This document shows, in pieces, positions 3,088 through 60,504 of a stretch of DNA of 64,000 nt. The notes beneath the pieces were generated by a model. That model saw only the letters and a list, made by a program, of their open reading frames with translations. It was not told the DNA's origin and did not search any database. The DNA comes from Hyaloscypha bicolor E (lineage: Eukaryota; Ascomycota; Leotiomycetes; Helotiales; Hyaloscyphaceae), in contig NW_020194684.1 of NCBI RefSeq assembly GCF_002865645.1, positions 1,813,241 through 1,877,240 on the forward strand. The letters run 5' to 3'. Each line of letters begins with the position of its first letter. The first letter of the stretch is position 1. Both the position numbers and the translations under genes were made by a program.

Positions 3088-5006
3088 TTATAGCCTCGAC
3101 AGCTCAGCTTTTCTCGGGCCGACATATCTAAATAAGTATGCCGCGATCTTTCTCATTTGAATCTCCTCACTGCCCTCGGTAATGCGATAACGGCCTGTCC
3201 TATATTAGTTCTCGGCCCTAGTATAAGCAGGAGTACCTTCGCTCACGATGATGCCGATATATATGCTCAAATCTGTAACAGTTATTAATTAGACCACTAG
3301 TCGATTGAACACTGTACACCACTCACGATTTATGTCTGGAGTAACCAATCCCACCTGTGTATTTTGTTAACTTGGGTCTATTGATCTCGGAATCTAGACC
3401 TGCCATGAATCTGCATTGCTCGATCAGCGGCCTGCGTGCACAGCCTATTGCCCCAATACTATTTCCAATCAGCTTCAGACCCCCTCCCCCGGAAGCCAGG
3501 ACTGCTTACATTGCACATAGACACCTTGTCGCCCAGATCTTGTTCAATCTCCTTTTGCGTCATACCATCCATTTCAGTGGCAGTTTTCAAAATCAATAAT
3601 TTCAACATCTCTGCCTGCGTTGCAAGTTCAACTACTGGAAACTGAATACCCTGGTTTGCGGAGAGTTCCTTGCCGAAAGGCTTCCGCCTCCTTGCATATT
3701 TGATGCTCTCTTCGATGCAATATTCCGCAGCACCAAGTGAGCTAGCAGCTTGGCGAAGCCGATTCTCGTGTACGAACGTCTGCGCAATTGCCAATCCGTG
3801 GTCGATGGTGCCAAGGACAGCAGTCTCTGGCACGAAGACGTCCGTGAAGGTCAAGGCTGTATCACCGATTGAGCGTTCAGTATAGGGAAGCTGGAAATGA
3901 TTCTTACTTGCGTGATCTGTAGGCATGTTGAATGTCCATTCATAGGACTCGATTATGAAACCCGGAGTACCCTTGGGAACAAAGAAAGCTGTAATACCAA
4001 TTGCATCGCCGGCCTTCCCGTGTGTTCTGGCAAAAACTAAGCAATGTGTTGCTCTGTGCATGCCGCTAATCCACATCTTCCCTCCATTTATCACCCATCC
4101 GTTCGTACCGTTTCTCGTGGTTTGAGCAGCATGAGTGAACATATGAGTTGCATCGGATCCGTGATTGGGCTCTGTTAGACCGAACGCGAAAGAAATCTTT
4201 TCATCAAGTCTCCCCTGAATGAACTCTCTTTTCTGCTCTATTTTGAGTTAACACAAAATCAAGATCGGATACTATAAGGTTCATGCCTTGAGTACCGAAT
4301 TCTTTCACCATAAGTCTGGGTGACGGAGGATTAGTAATTGCTCGATACAGATTCTTGAAGGAGCTTGGAGATTGCCTCGAAGAGTAAATCACGAGACAAT
4401 TACAAATAAGAAAGGAGTTTCTCCCCCTATACCCACATGTCTGGAAAGTTCCCAACGATGCTATGTTCGTTCTGCAAGTCGTTGAACAGGCCCAGCCCCT
4501 TCTTTGCCAGATGCATTCGAATGGCAGCCATCCATAGATTCCCCCCGTTTCTACCACCGAATTCCTCTGGCAAACAGAAACGATAGAAACCCGCCTCGTC
4601 AGCTAATCTGCGAGCCTGAGCTAAAAGCTCTTCCCAATCGTCACGCGGTAGACCGTGATGATCCCAATCGGTCTGTTGAATGGGTCAGAAGGAGGATGTA
4701 TGTATGCAAGGAAGTTTTGCACTACCCTAGCATGTTCCCGGCCTACCAATGAATTAGCAACGTATTTCTTTAGGGACGAAAGAGCAGGGTGCTTAAAACA
4801 TCCTCCCGACGAGTGAGGTAAGGAGCTCGGGATATATAGGACAAAGAAATAGGTTAGTTACGGTGATCGAAAAATCGGTTATTGTCATCGGATGCTTGCA
4901 ATGGCGCAATTTTAGTGTCTATAAAATGGTCAATCTCCTGAAGGTATGCCACAAGATCTGGCGGAATTGAGAAGCTCATCGCCCCAAGAGCTGGGTTGGG
5001 AGGCAT
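3088..5006 (-). CDS. acyl-CoA dehydrogenase with C-terminal SRL (PTS1-like)
   Basis: FAD-dependent acyl-CoA dehydrogenase, which introduces the trans-2 double bond into acyl-CoA in fatty-acid or branched-chain oxidation. Predicted exons (minus): 5006-4862, 4742-4726, 4672-4437, 4315-4296, 4237-3510, 3458-3404, 3354-3327, 3272-3247, 3194-3088. They join in phase to 453 aa, normal for the family. Visible motifs are the N-terminal helical domain with LQNEHSIVGN, the FAD/substrate motif GLTEPNHGSDA, GGKMWISG, and the C-terminal ITEGSEEIQMRK, whose first Glu sits where the catalytic base lies in this family. The last three residues, SRL, fit a type 1 peroxisomal signal. Two exons are tiny (17 and 20 nt). 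Intron 6 appears to start with GC, and intron 1 is the introner-like element described separately. The stop codon abuts the AT-rich block. Confidence 0.88.
4743..4861 (-). mobile_element. introner-like element, copy 1 (ACAD intron 1)
   Basis: This 119-nt intron begins GTAACTAACCTATTTCTTT and ends AAAGAAATACGTTGCTAATTC plus TTGGTAG (minus strand). It matches the MFS transporter intron at 23999-24114 over the first ~40 nt and the last ~30 nt. The end segments are reverse complements of each other (AACCTATTTCTTT against AAAGAAATACGTT, one mismatch), so the intron RNA could fold on itself. Shared sequence between introns of unrelated genes is the defining trait of fungal introner-like elements. 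Confidence 0.75.
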
Positions 5007-11257: not shown

Positions 11258-12678
11258 TCAGAAAAGTATCTGACCTCCATCCACAACAATATCCGTTCCT
11301 GAATTGATATACCGTCAGCAAGTTTGCCACAAGGATGGGGAGGATGCATTGCACGAGACTTGTTTAGTCCGGGGGTCATACCGTTGATGTATGTAGCTTG
11401 CATGCTCGAGAGCAACACAACGGTACCTGTCAGCTCATTCGGCGTTCCCATTCTCCCCAAAGGGTTCCTATCTGCCCATATCTTTCGTGCCTCTGCAATT
11501 CCCTCTCCTTCATTCAATATCGTGTCCATATACCCCGGGGAGAGCGAATTAACTCTGATTCCGTACCTTGCCCATTCGGCCGCCAAACAACTCTTCAATG
11601 TCAACAAAGCACTTTTGCTCACGTTGTAAGCTACCTATTCTCAAGAAATTCGGGTCAGCATACGTCTTTCGGGTATTTTCGGGAGTAGATTGTCCCAAGA
11701 GCTGTTGGACATGTCTACAAAAGGAATTGATACTCTGAGGGGACCTACTTGTGGCTGGGGCCAATTGACTCGGTGGCCAGAAATCGAAGCTACAAAAATA
11801 ATGCTCCCGCCATGACCTTGCTGAACCATCTGCTTTGCTACAGCCTGGGCACAAAGGAATCCTCCAGTCGTGTTGATATCGAGCACCCTGCGCCATTCAG
11901 CAGCGGTCATATCGAGGGCATGTTGACAGCCGACGACCCCAGCGAAGCAGAGAAGGTGATCCACGGAGCCTATCATCAGTCAGAATCAGTATGCCTGAGT
12001 GGATGAATGCCGACTGGGACGCCCTGTCTTGTAAGTCCGTTCAGTCCTTACACATGTCTGATGACACCGAAGAAGCCAACGATATTTGAAGTAGGAAGAG
12101 TTGCTTCGAAAATTAAACCTACCCAGGAGATTTCCTGTTTCTTCAACTGCTTTAGCAACTGCCAAATCATCAGTGATGTCAACTCGTTTCGAATGGATTT
12201 GGCAGGCTGGAAATTCTGGGTACCATAGTCAGTAATCACATGAAGATCGTTTCGGGATCGACTGGAAGATTATCTTAGAAGAAAGCCAAAAGACAGGTGG
12301 AAACAAGAAGAACTCTCACAAAACATACCCTTCTGCAACTTATCGATTTTGGGCTGCGCTTGAGTTAAGTTGACGTCAAAAATCATGACACCCGAGAGAC
12401 CATGTTCCAAGAGAGCCTTCAACGCTGCGAATCCAAGGGCCCCTCCTCCGCCAGTTATTCTGCAAAATCATCAGCGATGGTTTGGTTCGTAGAGAGACCA
12501 CTCACATGGCGTTTCCTTCCACTTCAAACCTCTTTGCGGCGCTTTTCTCAGCACTGAGGTTGTCGGATGGAAGTGCAGGTGGACCAGTTGAAGATGTTTC
12601 ATCACCTTTGCTTAGGGTCATTTGAGGCAGGATTCTTGATGTCAAAGAGTCTCGGTCTGTCGTGGTTGCTGACTGCAT
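11258..12678 (-). CDS. short-chain dehydrogenase/reductase (classical SDR)
   Basis: Predicted 303 aa from exons 12678-12506, 12459-12329, 12215-12123, 11969-11749, 11634-11382 and 11298-11258. NAD(P)-dependent oxidoreductase of the SDR superfamily, probably acting on a polyol or ketone. After a ~55-residue lead the Rossmann motif TGGGGALG appears (TGxxxGxG), then VMIFDVNL; the Asp after beta-2 favours NAD(H). Next come LCFAGVVG (the NNAG position), IIFVASISG with the catalytic Ser, and YNVSKSAL giving the Tyr-x-x-x-Lys pair. The C-terminus TYINGTDIVVDGGQILF is standard for the family. The Tyr-Lys pair is only reached by splicing 11749 to 11634. The real substrate cannot be told from sequence. 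Confidence 0.82.
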
Positions 12679-22708: not shown

Positions 22709-24621
22709 TCACATAACCTCGCTGGCAAACTTGCTTCTGGCCCTGATCTGGGGTCCATATAGTACCAACACCCACGGCACGGCCGTCAATAGTAATGCTA
22801 GCCCACCTAGTAGACTCGCCGCCCCTTGAAATGTCAATCGGTTGAACATTTGCACCGTGACCAAGGGAAAGACGCCACCCAGGATATTCCTACAAAATGA
22901 TTGCGCTGCCAGTGCCGAGCTTGCGTACCTATGGTAGGTATCGGCAAGATAGTTGAACGTAGCGAGATAGATCGAGAATATTCCCATAGTTGCACATGCT
23001 ATCGACATGGTAGGGACAATCCAAGGGATCGAGGGAAACTGAGTCCAGCCGAACCAGAAAAGGCCAATGGGAAGAAATACTGATTCAACACACGCAAAAT
23101 ATAGACGTGCTTCTGGGGAACTCAGGTCGATGCTTCTTCTTATCCGTCCTGGATTTTCAATATGCTTAGCCGAGGATGTGAGGTATCGGGCTAGCAGACG
23201 ATCTTGGTAGATGGAAAGAACCGTAGAAAGTATTGCACCAACGCACATTGCCGCGAAGACAGCTCCAGACTCTTGGATCGTGAAATCATGTGAACGGCCA
23301 AAGACGAGAGGGATAGACCCAAACGTTAGATAGAGAACAGCCCATGCAAAAGAAACCCAAAGACTGAAAAAGAAGACAACAGGCTCGGTGACGAGGAGGT
23401 GGAAAGGTCGACACACTGAAATGCCGATCATTTTCGAGATCGATTCTCGCTCCTCGTCGGACTTGACTTTCCATCGAATTCGCTGGCTCCCGGTCTTCTC
23501 TGATCCTGGGGAGACTGGCATGTCGAAACCGATGTAACCGGCCGCTTCCCTCTCTTCATACCACCTGTTCAGACACCTCGCTTTCTTGCTCAGAAGAATG
23601 CTTCCTCGAGTCTCCTTGAAGAATAGTGTCACCGCGGAGACCAAGATGCCGCAAATAATAACCTGTACCCAGAACACCCATCTCCAATTCGTGTTGTGGG
23701 CGATAAAGCCTGAGACCAAAGGACCCAAGCCCGTTCCGAGGAGAGCTCCACCCGAGAAAAGAGCCATGGGTGTGTTTCGATCGTGGGCGTGGTATAGGTC
23801 ACTGACAACCCCTACGAATTGTTAAATTCAATGATCACCTTGTTCCTTCTTGGATGCAGACTCACCCCCGACCATGGTTGAGAATACGGAACTCCCACAT
23901 CCAACCCAAAATCTAGCGACGATCATTCCAGCATAAGATTTGGTGACGGCACAGCATATTTGACATATTAGAAACAGAATTCCAGCACCAACGAAAACCT
24001 TCAACGAATTAGCAACCTGTTTCTTTGGAGGGGACGGAGCCGGGAGTATGTCCCATTCTCCTGACCCGTGAAATAGGGAGCTCGGGATATAGGTGAAAGA
24101 AATAGGTTGGTTACTGGATATCGGCCTTGAATTTCAGAAAATGGTGCTAGAACCATAGGAGCTATGCCAAAGCCACAACAGAAGCTAGTAATGCCAACCA
24201 CTGCAGCAACTTGACTCACATTCCATTCGACCGTCATCTGACCAACTGCAGGGGAGTACGCCCCAGCTGTATACGCAGTGCAGAGTGTGGCAATACACGA
24301 TAACCAGACCATGAAATTCTTCCGGGATTCGGGCCAGTCAAAGGGAGATGTGAACTTCTTGAGGTCTGGCTGAGGGGGCGATGGTTTTGCCGGATCCACG
24401 GATATACTGGTTGAAGGCGATGGCAGATTTGTTTCGAATTTTAAATAATGATAGATAATCGGTGTGGATTTGTCCAGGACATTTTCTTGTAGATCTTTCT
24501 CTGTTGACTTGGTTGTTAAGTTGTCCCTGGAATTTGCTTTGCTTTCATCGTCGAAGACTATTCCCTCAGGTACACGGCCCAGATCATCCTCGGCAAGGTC
24601 AACAATCTCTGGAGAAGCCAT
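22709..24621 (-). CDS. MFS transporter, DHA1 (drug:H+ antiporter) type
   Basis: Predicted 580 aa from exons 24621-24115, 23998-23866 and 23811-22709. Plasma-membrane major facilitator with about 12 hydrophobic segments after a ~100-residue hydrophilic N-terminus. The FSEIQGRYPV loop is the MFS motif A equivalent. It continues VFVGAGILFLICQICCAV, and GGALLGTGLGPLVSGFIA is the antiporter motif C typical of DHA1 drug/polyamine exporters. NWRWVFW follows. The first intron, which splits the P/V of the motif A loop, is introner-like element copy 2. An in-frame ATG at 24645 is an alternative start. The substrate is unknown. Confidence 0.85.
23999..24114 (-). mobile_element. introner-like element, copy 2 (MFS intron 1)
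   Basis: A 116-nt intron starting GTAACCAACCTATTTCTTT and carrying CCCGAGCTCC at about position 30. Its branch region is GGTTGCTAATTCGTTG and it ends in AAG. The same landmarks in the same order occur in intron 1 of the unrelated acyl-CoA dehydrogenase gene at 4743-4861. The two ends are complementary (AACCTATTTCTTT against AAAGAAACAGGTT, one mismatch). Confidence 0.75.
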
Positions 24622-39840: not shown

Positions 39841-40430
39841 AGCCTCCGCTAAAAACTTGCGAGCGTATTCATAAATATCATCCTCATCTTCCGGAGGGTC
39901 AAAGTTATCGACATTATCGAATGAATTGGGCTTTCAACCATGGATGACCTTTCCATGGTGAACCGTTGGGAGGCGGAAAAAGTAATTATTAGCTTCGTTG
40001 AAGGGAAGACGGGCAAGTCTATCGTCGATCTGATCATCTGGGCAAGATGAATTTGCATCAATTATCTAAGCAGCACGCCCTTGAAGGACTTGTCATGTTC
40101 TGGTTGTCCAGACTGCCTCTGCCAAGTATTAGCAGATGTTCTAGAGCGGTTGCAGATATGGTAGTGGCGTTACCTGCGTTATGAGTATTCATCAATGGTG
40201 TTCTGAATGGTCTCTGCCAGGTTATTGTTTTGGAGGAGAGAGGGGAGCTGGGGTTGCGGACGAAGGTGGAACTTTGCATCTGCAGTTGCCAGTTTCCCCG
40301 TCGCATGCAACTTCTTTGGCAGGCCTGACAAACTTCAAGAGAGGGTTTCATCCTTGGTCTCGTTTCCATCTGAGTTTCAGACGATTGAGGAGGATGCGTG
40401 AAAATTGAGATTGCACGGTTCAACCGCATG
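39841..40430 (-). pseudogene. decayed inverted fragment of the Cep57-domain gene
   Basis: Minus-strand DNA at 39860-39975 closely resembles 42225-42350 of the neighbouring Cep57-like gene. The words GGTTCACCATGGAAAGGTC and GATATTTATGA.TACGCTCG match almost exactly and would encode VHHGKV and DIYEYARK in both. The copy has in-frame stops, and LPFNEANNYF appears before VHHGKV although the parent has it after. It is therefore rearranged as well as broken. Upstream (40180-40430) matches are weaker. It lies 0.8-1.4 kb upstream of the parent gene in opposite orientation, consistent with a local inverted partial duplication that then decayed. Confidence 0.65.
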
Positions 40431-41253: not shown

Positions 41254-44200
41254 ATGGCTACGATCGACTCTGTCGCGTCGAGCACGGGCTCAAACCATGG
41301 ATCAATCACCATCAGCCCCGACGACACATACAACTCCAACTTCCCAATTGACTTCGACCCCGAGCGCGACGATGCCATCTGCTCCACCCTCGAGGTCAAA
41401 CGCAACTACAAGCAGACCGTCAATCCGTCTCCCCAGATGCGAGACACCGCGAAGAAATACGGTCGCTGGTCTCCTCGACGCCCTCAACACGATGTCATTA
41501 TCAACACATCGGCTCTGGCTCAGGCCTTCCCCGACTTCTCTCAAGCCGGTTCTCCGAACGATACCTTCTCCCTAGAAGCCCCTCGCGGCCGCAAGGGCAA
41601 ACAACAAACCACAGTCACGTCCTCCGCACTCGAATATACCACCGACGCGAATACTCCCATGATCAACCTCTCCAGCAATCTCCGCCTTCTGAAGACTCCA
41701 ATACAGCGAGTCGAACCCACTCAACCTACAATCTACGAAGACGTGACGCGCAACAATGCCAACGTCCGCAACAATAGCAACCAAGCCCACACCCATACTC
41801 AATCGAACACCAATGCTCAGACCAACACCAACCTCAACACGCGTAACAAATCCAACAACCCACCTCCAACTCACTTCGCCACAGAGCAGAAGGAGAATAT
41901 TCCTCCCATTCCTCAACAACAAAGCTTCAAGCGATCCTCCTACACCTCCAACGCCAGTCGTACCATCAGCGGCGACCGACGGACCTTCAAGGACCTTCAT
42001 GCCCGAGTCGCGGACGAGTCCGATGGCTCACTTATTGGTACAGAACGACCTGCTTCCGTCACCTTTCAACCCAAGAACACGCGCTTCTCCAAAGCCACGG
42101 AGAAGAAGCAGACCACCCAAACACACATCTTCACACCTACCAGTCTCAACGGCAAATCAGGCAATGCCACGCAACAGTCCTTCTTTGTCGCTAGTGTACT
42201 GAATTCTGCCTCGAACACTCAGACCAACGCCCTCCCCGCGGTTCACCATGGAAAGGTCGTCAATGGCGGCAAATCTCTTCCTTTCAATGAAGCAGACAAC
42301 TTCGACCTCCCAGAAGACGAGAAGGATATTTATGAGTACGCTCGGAAGCTCAAAGCACAGGTTGCAAAGTTGGAGACTGCACTTCAGTCTGCTCACAATA
42401 CCATTGACGAAATTCGAGCAGACAATGCCGATGCTGCTGCAATGCGCACGCAGGCAGGCATCCAATTGGAGAAAGAGCATGAGCGACTTTCTATTGAGAA
42501 CCAATCCCTCAAGGAAGAGATTCGGATTCTTAAAAATCAGCTCGCTCAGGAGGTTCAGGGCAAAGAAAACGCAACTCTTTCATTGGAAGAGCAAGAGTTT
42601 GCCTTCAAGGATCAAGTCGATCGAATACAGGATGAAGTCGATCGACTCCACGCAGAGCGAGAAGAGAATGAGCATAATTTCCAACAGCAACAGTCCGACT
42701 ACCAACGTCGAATTGTTTCACTTTCTCAAGAAAAGCAAGAGTTGATTCGAAACACGCACGCCCTTCAAAATCAAAAGTCTGCTCTCGCAACTCAAGTCGA
42801 ACAGCTGCGACAGGAGAAGGACCAAGACACTCGAACATGGCAGCAAAAGGAGACTACCTTTCAAATCCAAATACAACGACGCGATGAAGCTGTCCAGCGC
42901 CTTACAAATGTCACCCAACACCTCAAGGAGTCGACTCAAAACATCGAAGGTGTCACAAAGACCAGAGCATCAAAATCGCTCTCTGGTCGCAGTACCAAGC
43001 AGAAGTCGACCAGGGGAAACCACGATCAAGACCTGCCATCAAAAGTCATGAAGCAGGCACAAAATCACATGGAGGACATTCAAGCCGCGTCTGGTAACCT
43101 TCACTCCAGTAGTCAGCAACCTCCGGTCAGACAACGCAATCACACTCAGAAGGATCGGGCACCATTCCAAGCGCTCGATTTTGACCTTCACCAACAAGCA
43201 TTCGGCCAGAATCTTCAGCAATCTCAAAACATTCCCATCACTCGAAACGACCGGAATGACACTCAAATCACGCAAGAAGCGTCTTTCGATGACAACACGG
43301 GAGACCTTCAACACACCCAGCAATCCAATGACGAAACCCTTTCCGACGCCGGTTCCAACCTGTCCAGCATCGTTGGGCATGGTTTTATGGCAGACATTAA
43401 CCAGCACCTCAAAAATCTCAAAACTGCGAAGAGACAGCTCGAAGCTGCCGATCAAGCCTCCGCCCACGAAGACACCATTCAATCTGGTCAATCCTCTCAC
43501 GCACCATCTGTCAAGATGATGGCTGAACATCGCACCGTCCGCGATGACACCATCCAGACCATTCAATCTGGCCGTTCTTCTCATGCTCCATCCGTCAAAG
43601 GATCCGGTGGCATCTTGAAGAATTCCAACACCCCACAGGAGGATCTCACTGGCCACTTCAGCATCAAGTCGGCGAAACCAAACACTCGCACAGAACAGGA
43701 TCATACCAGCAGATCCAACACTCACCGGCGCCATCGTTCTCTGGTTGAAGAAGACTACACTACCAAATCCAACACCTCTCATCGTCGCCATCATTCGGAG
43801 ACGGCCGTTCACACCAACACACCTCGCCAAACAGACGGTGACGATATGACTTCGGCCTACCTTGTTGCAGACATCGATGCTGCCAAGCAGGGCAACAACA
43901 AAGATCGGCCAGTTCTCTCAGCCACTGCTCGCCAGGTCCTTGACAATCTTTGCGAACACCACCACAACCGCGGAAATTGCACGATCTGTCTGCGCCTTGC
44001 ATCCTTCAACACCAAGCCAGCAAGCAAGAAGACCATTCAAATTCAAAGACCAATCCCGGTTACCCAGCGCCCAACCAGCCCGGTACCCTACGAGGAAGAG
44101 GTTACACTTCGTCCAGCAGTTTCTCCGGGTCTCGCCTTGGCAACCGTGCTGAAAGGTCTCGAAGATGAGCTTGCTCATCTGAAGCTGAGACATTCGGAGG

Positions 44201-47490: not shown

Positions 47491-49184
47491 AGATTGACTC
47501 GGTTTCGACAAAAATTGTAAGATGGATGTAATGGTCGAAAAACACGACGCTCCAGGGAAATGACAGAGCTCGACGCTTGAGAACTGGAAGCGGGGAGTGG
47601 ACCAACACAGCAAACACGACAGTACTCAGCTTTGGTGCGGCTGAGCAAGCCAGGGAAACACTTGGCGCGCAATTTTTTGATTGTACTCTCCTCTGAAGTT
47701 CCGCTGGCGTAGGGGGCCTGCAGAAAAGGCGGTTCCGTGGTTGGTGGGAATGAGAAACGTGGCGAAAAATGAGAAAGGTGGGCAAATAGGTGGCGTAGAG
47801 GAGTAAGGTGATGGTCGAGGACTTGACAAGTTCCATACGGAATGTAGGCAGATCCAGCAAGCTGCAGCATTTCGGCGGCCAAGGAGAGATCGAGTTCACA
47901 TGGCTGCATTGCTGCATCGGTGCACTGTTGCACAGTAGACTGGCTTTCAAGATGGACGCAGACATTAGCTCGTCCTTCAAGGATGGCAGAGTCGGCCCTC
48001 TTGGATCATGTAGCCATCGCTGTCCAATCTTCTGGAACTTCGCAGGCTGGACAAACGCCTCTTCAAAATCTCGAAAGGTTCTCGAACATGGAGCTGGAAA
48101 GTGCCAAGGAAAAAGAAAAGATTCCGTGCAAGCCAACTCTTGGCTGTCTACCATGTGATTTGGCTTCAAGTACCAAGTTGTAGAGGGAAGCACCCACGTA
48201 AACTAACTTAGACGCACTCGCGACTCTCCATTAAACACCAGTATTCAGGCAACGATTCAAGGTCACTGAGTATCAAAGTTAAGAAGGTTAAAAATTTCGC
48301 CGCATCGCTGTGATGCTCTGTTACCCAGCTGTTGTCGTGGCAAATCCGTTTCGGCATGTGAAAGAGTCTGGGCTGTCCTCCTCGGGACTTCCCGAATTCT
48401 GGGCGGCGGGCTGGACATGGATCACTAGGTTCTACTATCCCCCCCCTTGAATAATTACGAGTGGGTCCTTTGGTAACGCCACACTGAAACTTCGCCAGTA
48501 TCCCCGAATTAGGAAATATCAGGTGCTTTCGAGAGCCGCTATTCGCTATAGACCCTCGATTGCGTGCCTTTAGTGGTGTGAATCGTGGCATGAGAGTGTG
48601 GCGAATATTGGACCCACTCGAAATTGTTCATGGGGGGGGATAGTACTGTAATCCAAACCATTCAGGTGTTTTTATCGGAGAATTGTGGGGTATGCGGCCG
48701 CTTTATATTTACTACGCACGGTCTTCCGCTCAGTTTCCATTTCAAGTTGTCTTTAGGGCCTTCGGGCTTAAAAACTATATTAGGCGTGAAGTATTGCGCA
48801 TTTATTAATTATTTGAATTTTATTTAAGAGTTAGCTTATAAGAGACTATAGAGAAATTAATTAGTAAGAAAGAAATCGATATTCTTGTAGTTATTTCTAG
48901 GCCGTTAATGCCCTAGAGTTATGGGCATATGCGCTACGTGCTGGGTGTATGGGCCTATCCTGGCCAAAAGCTGGTCCGGGGTTTTAAAATCATACAAAAA
49001 AGGCGATCCATATGGTGGTCCCATATTTTTTCAAATAAGCCTTCATATGTGGGACCTGCCGTGGTAGTGGGAATAGTAATGGTCAAAGCTTGAGACTAGC
49101 ATATGGTCTCCGTATGTGAACGGTGTATGGCGGTGGCAGGAGGGGCCCTAGGAGTGGAAGAAATACCACCAGATCAGGCTCCGA
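47491..49184. other. intergenic region
   Basis: 1.7 kb with no convincing gene. Minus-strand frames of 127-246 codons (48208-48591, 47453-48193) have no domain. An AT-rich patch at ~48770-48900 looks RIP-affected. A short run of G lies at ~48632-48640. Confidence 0.45.
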
Positions 49185-50437: not shown

Positions 50438-50624
50438 TACCGGCGAAGGAATTTCCACCGCACGAGATATTCCTAATTAAACCCATTCTTTAATCTTAAT
50501 CATCTCTTGAAAGCGGCGAGATCAGGAAAGAATCCGGATAAGAAAGTTGCGAATGTGGATGAAGTGCTCCGCCCCCGAAGCAGCTCTTGAGGCCTGAGCA
50601 CTTGTTTAGCATTCCGGCCATAAA

Positions 50625-51228
50625 CAGTGTGTCAAAAAATAATCAAGGCTAATTAATTAGAATTAATTATAATTAATTATAATTAAGTATGATTTGATTA
50701 GCTTGATTTTTATTATAATTAATTATAATTAATTATAATCATCACGTGATAATATAAAAGTATACTTTCTTAGGCATTTCTAAAAATTAGTCTAAATCTA
50801 AAATAACAAACTAATTTTTGTTATGTGGTACCAGTCACGTGGTGCTATTACACGTGACTCAGCATGTGGCCAGTGCTTCCTTAGCCTGGCAGATAGCCTT
50901 TAGCTCAATTCAAGCTCTTTACTACTACTATAACACTGGAAATCAAGGAGGTTCTAGCGCCTTTGGCTTCGCTTACTAATTAGCGCTAGGCCTGGTTTAG
51001 TAAAGAGCGCCTTTAGCAATACCGAATACGGCTAGCCCAGACCTTATTTTAGCCTTATCTCGGCTTCCGAAGCTCCAGAGTCATGTGCGTAATCACGTGA
51101 TGAATCTAATTAATTATCTCTGATTATCTTTGATTATAATTAAGTATGATTTGATTAGCTTGATTTTGACTTGATTTGATTTGAGTAGGGGGGTCTAATC
51201 AAATCAAACCTAATCATTTGACACACTG
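50625..51228. mobile_element. 604-bp non-autonomous hAT-like element
   Basis: Terminal inverted repeats CAGTGTGTCAAA / TTTGACACACTG are perfect over 12 bp. The flanks carry a perfect 8-bp target duplication, GCCATAAA, at 50617-50624 and 51229-51236. CAG-type ends with an 8-bp duplication are the hallmark of hAT elements. Inside, a ~30-bp word containing AAGTATGATTTGATTAGC occurs twice in direct orientation (~50683 and ~51138). A TCACGTGAT motif is arranged inversely near both ends. No transposase frame exists. The left arm is rich in AATTAATTAT repeats. Confidence 0.9.
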
Positions 51229-55571: not shown

Positions 55572-58500
55572 TTACGTCCTATACTTCTCGATATACAATG
55601 AAAGCTGCTCCAATATTTTGTCTCGGTCCTTGAATGAACTTGCTTTTATCCTTGCAAGAGGCGATGTCCCAAAATTGTCTATAGCAGACGGGTCGACATT
55701 GCCGGTTGCAAGAAGCATTGATACAACACCTTCTGCTTCGTGCATAGGATGCGCGTCAACTGCATGCCGCAGAGGAGTTTGGCCTTCATTGTCTCTAGAG
55801 TCCGCATCTACCTCACCTGTCTTGAGCAAGAGCTTAACAATAGCATTGCGGCTACCTATAGCAGCCCACGAGAGCGGAGTCTGGCCACTATTATCTCTCA
55901 AGTCTACATCTACCTTGCCTGTGGCAAGAAGTAGCTTAATAACTGCTTCGTGACCATTTACAGCGGCCCGCGAGAGCGGAGTCTGGCCTTTATAATCTCT
56001 CGAGTTTATAGCTACCTTGCCCGTAGCAAGAAGTAGCTTAATGACTACTTCGTGGCCATTTCCAGCGGCCCGCGAGAGCGGAGTCTGGCCAAAGATATCT
56101 CTCGAGTCTATATCTACCTTGCCCGTAGCAAGAAGTAGCTTAATGACTACTTCGTGGCCATTTTGAGCTGCCCACGAGAGCGGAGTCTGGCCGATATCAT
56201 CTCTCAAGTCCGCATCTACCTCACCTGTCTCGAGCAAGAGCTTAATGACTACAGTATAGCCTTTCTGAGCCGCGCAAAGCAAAGGTGTCTGTCCGTATTT
56301 ACCCTTAGTATCTGCCACGGAAATTTTTCTTGCGTCGAGCATGAATGCCCATATCATCTCATCACCAAGTTCCTCCATGTACGAAAGCAGTGTCCTGCGT
56401 TTCGAGAACTTGAAACCACGTCCAGAGATGCTATCCTTGCTTTCATCATAACGGTATTGACGATAGATCTCGCGCAATTTGCTTGTCTCAAGTTCTATGA
56501 ATGTTTGGACCGCCTCTTTACTTCCTGTAGCCAACGCCGCAAAAAGTGGCAGTCCATATCGCTCATCCTCGACCTCAACATATGATAGGTTGTTGGGGTG
56601 GATTCTAATAAGGTTGGACATATTGTGCTCTGCCAGAATGTAAAGCAGACTTGCGTTTTGTGTATATCGGCGTACCTTGGCCTTTTCAAATAGGTTGTTT
56701 AGCTTGATCCAATTGTCGAGAGGAAAACTCCGAATCAAATCGCCTTGATCGACTCCACGACTTTCTGCTGAATCTGCGTGGCAGAGCACCATGCGTATGG
56801 TGTATTCGAGGAAGGGAAACCTTTTGATAGCTAACTGTCGGAGATCCGCAGCCTCCTCCTCTGATGCTTCTGGGAGTAGTTTTCCCATGTCTAGATGCGC
56901 AGAGTGGTCGATGCCCATATAGAAAAGGCAGCACTGCTTCAATCGGTCATGGCTTTGCCCTTGAAAATTACCTCCAAGATCGGGAAAAAGTTCCCCGAGT
57001 CCATTCTCCTTGACAAGGAAGTCCCTCACCGACTCATGTATGAATTGAACTGTCGGAGTCTTCGACTTTGTAATTTCGGCGAGGCCTTTCGAAGAATTGA
57101 GAATAAATTTCTTCATTACGTCCATTGTGATCTCGTCGATATTTCCGCTTCCTAGGACCTCGGGTGCAACGCCGGAGAGAATAGCAAAGTACAATTCCTC
57201 CGGCTTCAAGGGCTGTTTTGCAAATAGGATCCACTGTATACACAACAGTAATTCATCTCTGTTGTAGCAGTCGCGCATTAAAATTTGGCGGAATAACTCG
57301 TGTAGGTCGTTTGGGATATCTCGAAGCTTTTGGCGAAGGACGTGTACGCGGCCGCCATCGTTCTCCTTGTTTAATATCTCCACGACAAGTACAACCCACA
57401 TAAAAACACCAGAGGCTTTGCTTTGGAGCTCGCCTCTGATCTCTTTGGCAAGTTTTCCGTGCCCGATTTTCAGCTCGCTATCCAAATAGTTGGTGATGTC
57501 CTGATCATGGCCCTCTTGACCTTCCAGTACTAGATTTAGCCCTTTACTAATCGTGATATGCGGGTAGTGTCTGCTTGAGAAGCACACCTGAAATCGAATG
57601 CCGGCAGAGATGGCCAATTCGCCGAGTTGTTCAAAGAATGCTACCATGTCCCTGATCTGGCGTTCCTCGCATTCATCCAAGGCATCTATGAAGCATATTA
57701 GAGACCGCTTTCCGAGCAGCTGAATCGCCTGCTCGAACAATTCTTTTAGCGTCTCTACACTCCACTGATGAGATCCGCTACTGCTCATTGCCGTCGATCC
57801 CAGTGAGTCAAAAACGCACTGTAGTTCGGGGATTCTTTCGAGGAGCTGCAATAACAAGGATCGATACATTCCAGCTGTGGACTTTTCCAAGTCTTCTCCT
57901 CGGGCGTTGAAGAAGAATGAGATAATTATCTTATCCTTCATAGTTTTCCGTGCATGGGCATGGGCAAATTTCATTAGTGTCGATTTGCCAGTTCCCGGTT
58001 TCCCTTTGATCCATAAGAATCCGTGGTGTTCCACGAGCTTGTTAACATCGAGCCAGTCGAGGTATTCTTGCATTTTCAATAGCCATTTGCATGTCTTGGC
58101 GTGGCCGCTCTTAATGGTCATTTGTCGGCCATCGATTTGGTCAAATCTTAGGGAGTCCAGTAATACTCGTCTTTGTTCTGCATCAAGAGACGGAAACTCC
58201 CCACTTCTGGATCCTCTGGAGATCGCACTCGTCATTCTGCAAAGAGCCGCAGCTACTTTCTTGTACTCGACATCCTCGAGGCCAGTGAAGCGACACATGC
58301 CCATATGATCGCGACCAATGTGTTGGGTAGTCTCGATGGTTGGAAAGTTTAGGTACGACGATTCATCCTCGACAACCTACAAAGTCAGACGCCAGCCTTC
58401 ATGCACAGTGAACAATTGTACGTACCTTGTTACCACTGAGGAGATTAACACCTATTTCCTCCTGGAAAGAATGTATAATCCATCCTTGTTGATGAGCGAT

Positions 58501-60296: not shown

Positions 60297-60481
60297 ATTG
60301 TGGGCCCTTAAGTAACACCACATCTGCACTGGCCAACTTAAGGTCTGTGGCCAATAGAGACTCTCGGAGGCACTTGATATGGCTGTACTGTACAAAGTAG
60401 AAACTCTTGAAGGCACCTGATATTTCCTAGTTTAGGGATATAAACGAGGTTTCGGGGTGGCGTTCCCTAAGGGCCCACAAT
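60297..60481. mobile_element. ~185-bp inverted-repeat (MITE-like) element
   Basis: The left end ATTGTGGGCCCTTAAGTAAC is mirrored at the right end (GTTCCCTAAGGGCCCACAAT). The arms match imperfectly over ~28 bp (shared GTGGGCCCTTA and AACRCCAC). No clear target duplication is seen. It has no coding capacity and lies in the shared NLR upstream region. Confidence 0.55.
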
Positions 60482-60491
60482 AAGTATTAAA

Positions 60492-60504
60492 GGGGGGGGG
60501 GGGG
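60492..60504 (+). repeat. G13 homopolymer
   Basis: Thirteen consecutive G residues ~750 bp upstream of the plus-strand NLR, directly next to the inverted-repeat element. Confidence 0.85.

Follow-up and report, generated by a model that had tools for sequence, protein, structure and literature searches.

The genome analysed here holds at least four families of introners. One of them, F1, was found at 83 places, and the first base of the exon that follows it (+1) varies with the variant of the element. F1 elements are almost certainly introners, spliceosomal introns able to spread copies of themselves among unrelated genes. Introners are of a known kind; what is new here are the families F2 to F4 and a +1 base that depends on the F1 variant.

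Within the window, the whole stretch of 64,000 nucleotides that was analysed, two introns on the minus strand, at 4743..4861 (119 nt; locus L001) and 23999..24114 (116 nt), align over the shared blocks GTAACYAACCTATTTCTTT, CCCGAGCTCC and GTTGCTAATTC in identical order, as an earlier note on this DNA had described. The host genes had been called unrelated, and hand-spliced gene models bear this out: one encodes an acyl-CoA dehydrogenase and the other an MFS transporter. The 3' open frame of the dehydrogenase gene (3459..4247, minus strand) matches Pfam PF02770 and PF00441; in the transporter, the spliced junction reads GRYP/VFVG and PF07690 crosses it. The best protein match of the hand-spliced dehydrogenase was Hyaloscypha finlandica (92% identity in the protein search, 97% in the multiple alignment), followed by Stipitochalara longipes and then H. 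variabilis. Judged from these matches, the host fungus appears to be nearest Hyaloscypha (Helotiales, Leotiomycetes) and is not a Dothideomycete.

The copy at 4743..4861 has a 5' arm (4842..4861, minus strand) that joins the donor GTAAC to a stem half, TAACCTATTTCTTTG, and this half can pair with the complementary 3' arm AAAGAAATACGTTGC (4757..4771, minus strand). The block GCTAATTC (4751..4758, minus strand), near-invariant in F1 alignments, is the predicted branch site, an assignment we assume from the fungal consensus; its branch A lies 12 nt from the acceptor, and the +1 exon base is G. A 17-nt exon (4726..4742, minus strand), delimited by sequence and by frame relative to homologues, separates this introner from an apparently ordinary intron of 53 nt, GTAGTG...CAACAG (4673..4725, minus strand), at which homologues run through. 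The transporter copy ends in TTGAAG with 11 nt between branch A and acceptor; its +1 base is G, an exception to the trend of its own variant (see below).

Searched with blastn against its own genome (82.0 Mb, 76 contigs), each window intron returned at least 40 matches. A 23-base donor pattern and a 25-base 3' pattern, each with up to three mismatches allowed, matched 67 and 63 times genome-wide, and neither matched when written backwards. The likeness of the two window introns exceeds chance by a wide margin. Pattern and blast matches merged into 84 clusters, one of which was the opposite arm of one element, leaving 83 F1 places; further, more divergent copies may exist. This search for further intronic copies had been set beforehand as the refuting test of intron multiplication, and with one family at 83 places multiplication is the right reading. 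One correction to the earlier note is that two copies per 64 kb represent a local excess over a mean of about 1 per Mb; the window was selected for holding two copies. Five F1 pairs lay within 8 kb of each other, compared with 0.66 expected for a uniform genome and 1.33 if half of the genome were available, a clustering that could reflect gene density. By eye, three of these pairs combined different variants, one (L064/L087) the same variant, and one was unclassified. Viral contigs contained no exact match to the donor block.

All F1 statistics refer to 75 of the 83 places, non-duplicate loci in which both the donor GT and the 3' block are clear; the donors of L021, L054 and L077 were moved by one base by hand. 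L014, L020, L022 and L059 were left out for an ambiguous donor or acceptor, and L066, L068, L072 and L083 are full copies recovered after the statistics were made. F1 copies are GT...AG introns of 74 to 139 nt (114 to 130 nt in 65 of 75), the AG being given by construction, since the AG nearest downstream of the 3' block was taken to be the acceptor. The consensus starts with GTAACCAACCTATTTCTTTG and ends with AAAGAAAYANGTTGCTAATTCGTTG followed by GTAG, AAG, CAG or TAG. Three copies (L039, L041 and L051) join the central loop of one F1 variant to the 3' end of another, which may reflect either recombination between copies or shared ancestry.

An all-against-all comparison of flanks, with F1 masked, revealed three more intron families. 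F2 has the ends GTAAGTCCCAACTTCTCGG...TTCTTGGGAATAG and gave 31 genome matches, merging to 27 places; this count is a lower bound because the search missed the F2 copies in L030 and L052. Copies were delineated in the window (11635..11748, minus strand, 114 nt), L003, L013, L030, L052 and L091 to L102; 17 of the 18 rows have a recognisable donor, and some 3' ends are uncertain. Each contains one or two copies of an internal unit, the number varying among copies. The gene hosting the window copy reads as a short-chain dehydrogenase with the junction PQ/VAYNVSK, a label taken from the translation without a search. F3, with the ends GTAAGCTTATTTCC...TACTAATTCGATGATTAG, gave 16 matches in a genome search that missed the copy in L035. 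Its 13 rows (L003:1639-1795, L003 from 2151, L035 and L103 to L112), at least three of which have a missing or wrongly delimited 3' end, carry G at position -1 in 11 cases. The 3' end of F3 resembles that of F1. F4, with the ends GTAGGTGTTGGGGGAG...CTCCCCCGTTACCTAG, was seen in four copies (L029, L088, which is the same as the copy in L072, L089 and L090), and the inverted repeats at its ends include the splice sites.

Families meet in individual genes. L003, which reads as a PDR-type ABC transporter, contains copies from three families, four introners in all (a single F2, a single F1 and two F3), and the exon between its F1 copy and first F3 copy is only 24 nt long. F2 lay within 5 kb of F1 in 3 of 26 cases, more than the 0.27 expected, and F3 in 0 of 14. 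Both families had initially come to light in the flanks of F1 copies; the counts leave out the copies used as queries and the second F3 copy of L003. In Zn2Cys6 genes, F1 in L011 and F2 in L093 both interrupt the same stretch at R/VKCDE, and F1 in L046 lies one base off (by eye). Such entries are possibly parallel gains.

The window also contains repeats of other kinds. Positions 50622-51228 match a portion of L060 with an identity of up to 97.6% and are probably a dispersed repeat; the flank comparison showed a tandem-like repeat at 55771-56276. Two inverted pairs were found, 39856-39973 with 42231-42348 (75% identity) and 48439-48535 with 60404-60499 (79% identity, adjoining C runs).

Several measures place F1 mostly in coding sequence. 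The open span after splicing was longer in sense than in antisense for 62 of 75 copies. A codon score trained on the 17 Pfam-matched copies favoured sense over antisense in 47 of the 58 remaining ones; it exceeded zero in 35 of 58 sense and 15 of 58 antisense readings and at 23% of random window positions, and was lowest for L009 and L026. Among 20 peptides hand-picked as recognisable, 17 have a spliced junction that falls within a Pfam domain, the exceptions being L027, L028 and L047. The frame stays open for 20 or more codons to either side of 64 of 75 copies, a weak test by itself because this also holds for 58% of random window positions. Codon phases 0, 1 and 2 were represented by 27, 19 and 26 of 72 copies, with no phase bias. 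We conclude that F1 lies mostly in sense orientation and mostly in coding exons, not exclusively so.

At the sites that could be compared, insertion left the exons intact. The FFDH/RREHAR junction of the acyl-CoA dehydrogenase falls in RFFDHRRE, which is invariant and gapless in 13 proteins (the query and 12 others, one from Bradyrhizobium), a comparison of proteins that is silent on introns in the genes of fungal relatives. The junctions of a GH32 protein (GNQH/WGHATS) and a THYN1-like protein (EPEP/WDG) are unbroken in solved relatives, and that of an AlkB-like protein (TQAN/WLHSIP) is unbroken relative to ALKBH3. By these alignments, F1 insertion is seamless in existing exons of all four host proteins. 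No target-site duplication was found at F1 in 3,360 combinations of offset and length; the lone excess (k of 3, offsets -9 and +8, 7 observed and 1.2 expected) was not adjacent to the junctions.

These observations bear on whether F1 introns are simply old, their likeness arising from convergence of ordinary introns or from gene duplication. The host genes of two pairs of copies, L027/L028 and L004/L062, do seem by eye to be related. However, the L027 and L028 sites differ in the spliced peptides, each gene being empty at the other's site, and the L004 gene is empty at the L062 site, the converse not being covered (all by eye). The closest F1 pair, L004/L005, is 98.4% identical across 128 nt in different genes, and at the acyl-CoA dehydrogenase site the homologues, bacterial as well as fungal, continue without a break. 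Great age is an exceedingly improbable explanation.

A second possibility is that F1 is a small, MITE-like DNA transposon with terminal inverted repeats, spliceable by chance and mobilized by a transposase in trans. Imperfect inverted repeats do lie near both F1 ends, those of F4 take in the splice sites, and among the introner families classified from outside the ascomycetes 78.5% have target-site duplications (TSDs), terminal inverted repeats (TIRs) or both, according to the available part of PMC9860276. F1, however, shows no duplication, its 3' repeat arm stops about 10 nt short of the element end, and its preference for sense orientation and coding exons does not suit such an element. Nor did L001 to L087 contain two F1-like ends on one strand separated by over 160 nt (up to four mismatches per end) in a search spanning about 0.6 to 2 kb either side of the loci, a range that a long autonomous element could escape. 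We consider a MITE-like origin quite improbable. The absence of duplication, the prevailing sense orientation and the lack of phase bias together fit a route through RNA and do not fit the usual DNA transposition.

The earlier note had proposed that complementary terminal blocks form a long stem. The complementarity was confirmed; support from covariation was absent. Single-copy folds gave at least eight pairs of the terminal stem in 50 of 75 copies, with a median z of -1.1 against 60 shuffles. Among seven folds inspected, L032, L064 and L087 reached z of -4.7 to -5.2, and in six the branch block and acceptor were unpaired beside the stem; in L001 the tail with branch site and acceptor folds into a small hairpin of its own. 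F1 also has a central hairpin, e.g., CGGGAGCATG/CATGCTCCCG. In a structure written by hand from the F1 alignment, 82.6% of cells pair across 49 copies, compared with 36.2 to 47.5% when it is slid by one to three columns, a control that favours any structure drawn from the same sequences. RNAalifold predicted zero pairs on the F1 alignment, and the 49-copy alignment showed no covariation by a shuffle control and no compensatory changes, so the case for the stem is one of complementarity. Our reading is that the stem was present in founder sequences and decays in copies without compensation. The relation reported for Hypoxylon, in which younger copies have better stems, was not seen in F1: stem quality did not correlate with nearest-neighbour identity (Spearman 0.03). 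A scan of window positions 4700-4900 against Rfam, group II introns included, gave no match up to an E value of 1.

From these features we infer that F1 copies are spliced and spread through an RNA intermediate and a reverse-splicing-like step in which the stem plays a role. The F1 RNA would close on its terminal stem, which runs from a few nucleotides past the donor to the position immediately ahead of the branch block GCTAAT, and the predicted stem base would set donor, branch site and acceptor side by side. A reaction resembling reverse splicing could then join the excised RNA into genomic DNA within a transcribed gene, where it would be copied into DNA. We favour this mechanism as a whole, RNA-mediated insertion straight into genomic DNA, as somewhat more likely than not.

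The neighbourhood of the introners speaks to the step of insertion. Apparently ordinary introns lie 17 nt from the introner in the acyl-CoA dehydrogenase gene, about 33 nt in the GH32 gene (read from a peptide insertion relative to relatives) and 14 nt from the second F3 copy of L003. All of these, at 14 to 33 nt, and the introner 24 nt from its neighbour in L003 were retained, which argues against recombination with a long tract of cDNA made from spliced mRNA. Insertion into genomic DNA is favoured because the cDNA route would erase such close neighbours; the argument would weaken if the neighbouring ordinary introns were gained after the introners, as they may have been.

The base at the entry site depends on the F1 variant. 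When 70 of the 75 copies were sorted by how far branch A lies from the acceptor (the five with other branch distances being left out), 20 of the 26 at 12 nt had G as their +1 base, and of the 44 at 11 nt, 25 had T and 8 had G. Sorted by internal motif, variant A had G in 24 of 38 and variant B had T in 20 of 32, with five unassigned. Fisher tests by distance class gave P values of 2e-6 for G and 3e-5 for T, which are nominal, since both classifications were made after the sequences had been seen. Three of the four copies recovered later fit the rule (L066 and L068 with 11 nt and T; L083 with 12 nt and G), and L072 (11 nt, G) breaks it. The -1 base was G in 25 of 75 copies (G in 12 and A in 7 of the 26 with 12 nt; evenly distributed in those with 11 nt), and thus only a minority begin with the GGT of a [D1,2] stwintron.

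In the four genes open to judgement by comparison with relatives, the +1 base belongs to the target and predates the insertion. Two of these genes carry the 12-nt variant: in the acyl-CoA dehydrogenase the base is position 2 of an Arg codon that is invariant across the 13 proteins, and in the THYN1-like gene it is position 3 of a Trp codon that THYN1 shares. In the GH32 and AlkB-like genes, which carry the 11-nt variant, a conserved Trp codon begins with the +1 base. Copies in a hydantoinase and an alcohol dehydrogenase decide nothing about the ancestral base because the residue varies, and no solved relative was found for a sugar transporter that carries another copy. The two F1 variants thus seem to prefer different bases at the site of entry.

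This preference matters for the proposal, made by Fekete and colleagues for Hypoxylaceae, that intron RNA serves as filler when chance double-strand breaks are repaired, the stem merely protecting the RNA. Such filling explains most F1 features: insertion is seamless and without duplication, phases are random and the structure is symmetric, as in the parts of PMC8469720 and PMC12403724 available to us. It does not explain the +1 base, which a randomly placed break does not predict; a chance break should be blind to the variant that fills it, whereas +1 is mostly G or mostly T according to variant (a post hoc classification). The sense bias demands an extra assumption as well. We consider filling of chance breaks unlikely.

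The main rival for the +1 base, and for this base only, is a filter at splicing in place of a choice of target: the survivors would be copies that splice well, and the two 3' ends would need different contexts. AG/G is a common exon context, which counts in favour of a filter, as does F2, a family that mostly ends in TAG and has a +1 G in 10 of its 17 rows. T at +1 is not known to be a favourable context, which counts against it, and the 14 copies with 11 nt that end in TAG still mostly have T (T in 7, G in 4, C in 2 and A in 1). We regard a splicing filter as a serious possibility, though short of an even one.

As for choice of target, the F1 RNA may help to select its site, such that a small change in the 3' module (1 nt in the spacing of branch A and acceptor, together with linked changes) would switch the preferred +1 base from T to G. 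We offer this tentatively, as an idea that may well not hold. When intron columns were ranked by mutual information as pairing partners of the +1 base, the best columns were subfamily markers, and consequently no partner can be named. Group II introns recognize single exon bases. If true, target choice by F1 RNA would be a spliceosomal counterpart of this exon recognition, acting through reverse splicing into DNA.

Introner-like elements (ILEs) were reportedly described in Dothideomycetes by van der Burgt in 2012. Like F1, these are similar canonical introns in unrelated genes, with several families per species, as far as the available text of Collemare 2015 (PMC4457414) goes, and they share seamless sites and a predicted stable structure, as cited in the accessible part of PMC8469720. 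They belong to another fungal class, and we set them apart from F1 by description, not by sequence. Their site preference is AG/GY (cited in the same portion of PMC8469720), whereas the +1 base of F1 varies with the variant. Symmetrical sister stwintrons, together with cropped sister introns, are described for Hypoxylaceae and Xylariaceae in the portions of PMC8469720 and PMC12403724 at hand; they resemble F1 in having terminal or near-terminal inverted repeats that join the ends, in seamless insertion without duplication, and in being introns on the coding strand only. F1 is a single canonical intron and not a [D1,2] stwintron, although the cropped sister introns described there are canonical too. 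For these Xylariales, the same portions of the two papers describe no exon-border bias; F1 has one.

The introners of Gozashti 2022 (PMC9860276), as presented in the part available, share with F1 full-length similarity in unrelated genes. The ascomycete families among them are described in that part as having neither TIRs nor TSDs; F1 likewise lacks TSDs, but F1 and F4 differ in having inverted repeats near or at their ends. The present genome may already be in the species list of that study. A literature search of titles and abstract openings, with preprints and supplementary species lists outside its scope, found none on introners in Leotiomycetes, and a search for Hyaloscypha and intron gain (preprints and supplementary tables likewise outside) found none. 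Among co-mentions of introners with Leotiomycetes or Helotiales, no title concerned these fungi; both words occur in PMC3510045 and PMC11889510, as indexed.

How new introns originate and multiply is a question of long standing. For its study this genome provides about 80 F1 copies in distinguishable variants, three more families and a target base that depends on the variant. At least two of its introner families have inverted repeats at or near their ends, with unrelated sequences. The +1 base separates the models, since a random break predicts no preference, a transposase normally leaves a duplication and reverse splicing allows such a base. A preference of each variant for its own entry base would make the birth of introns easier to test.
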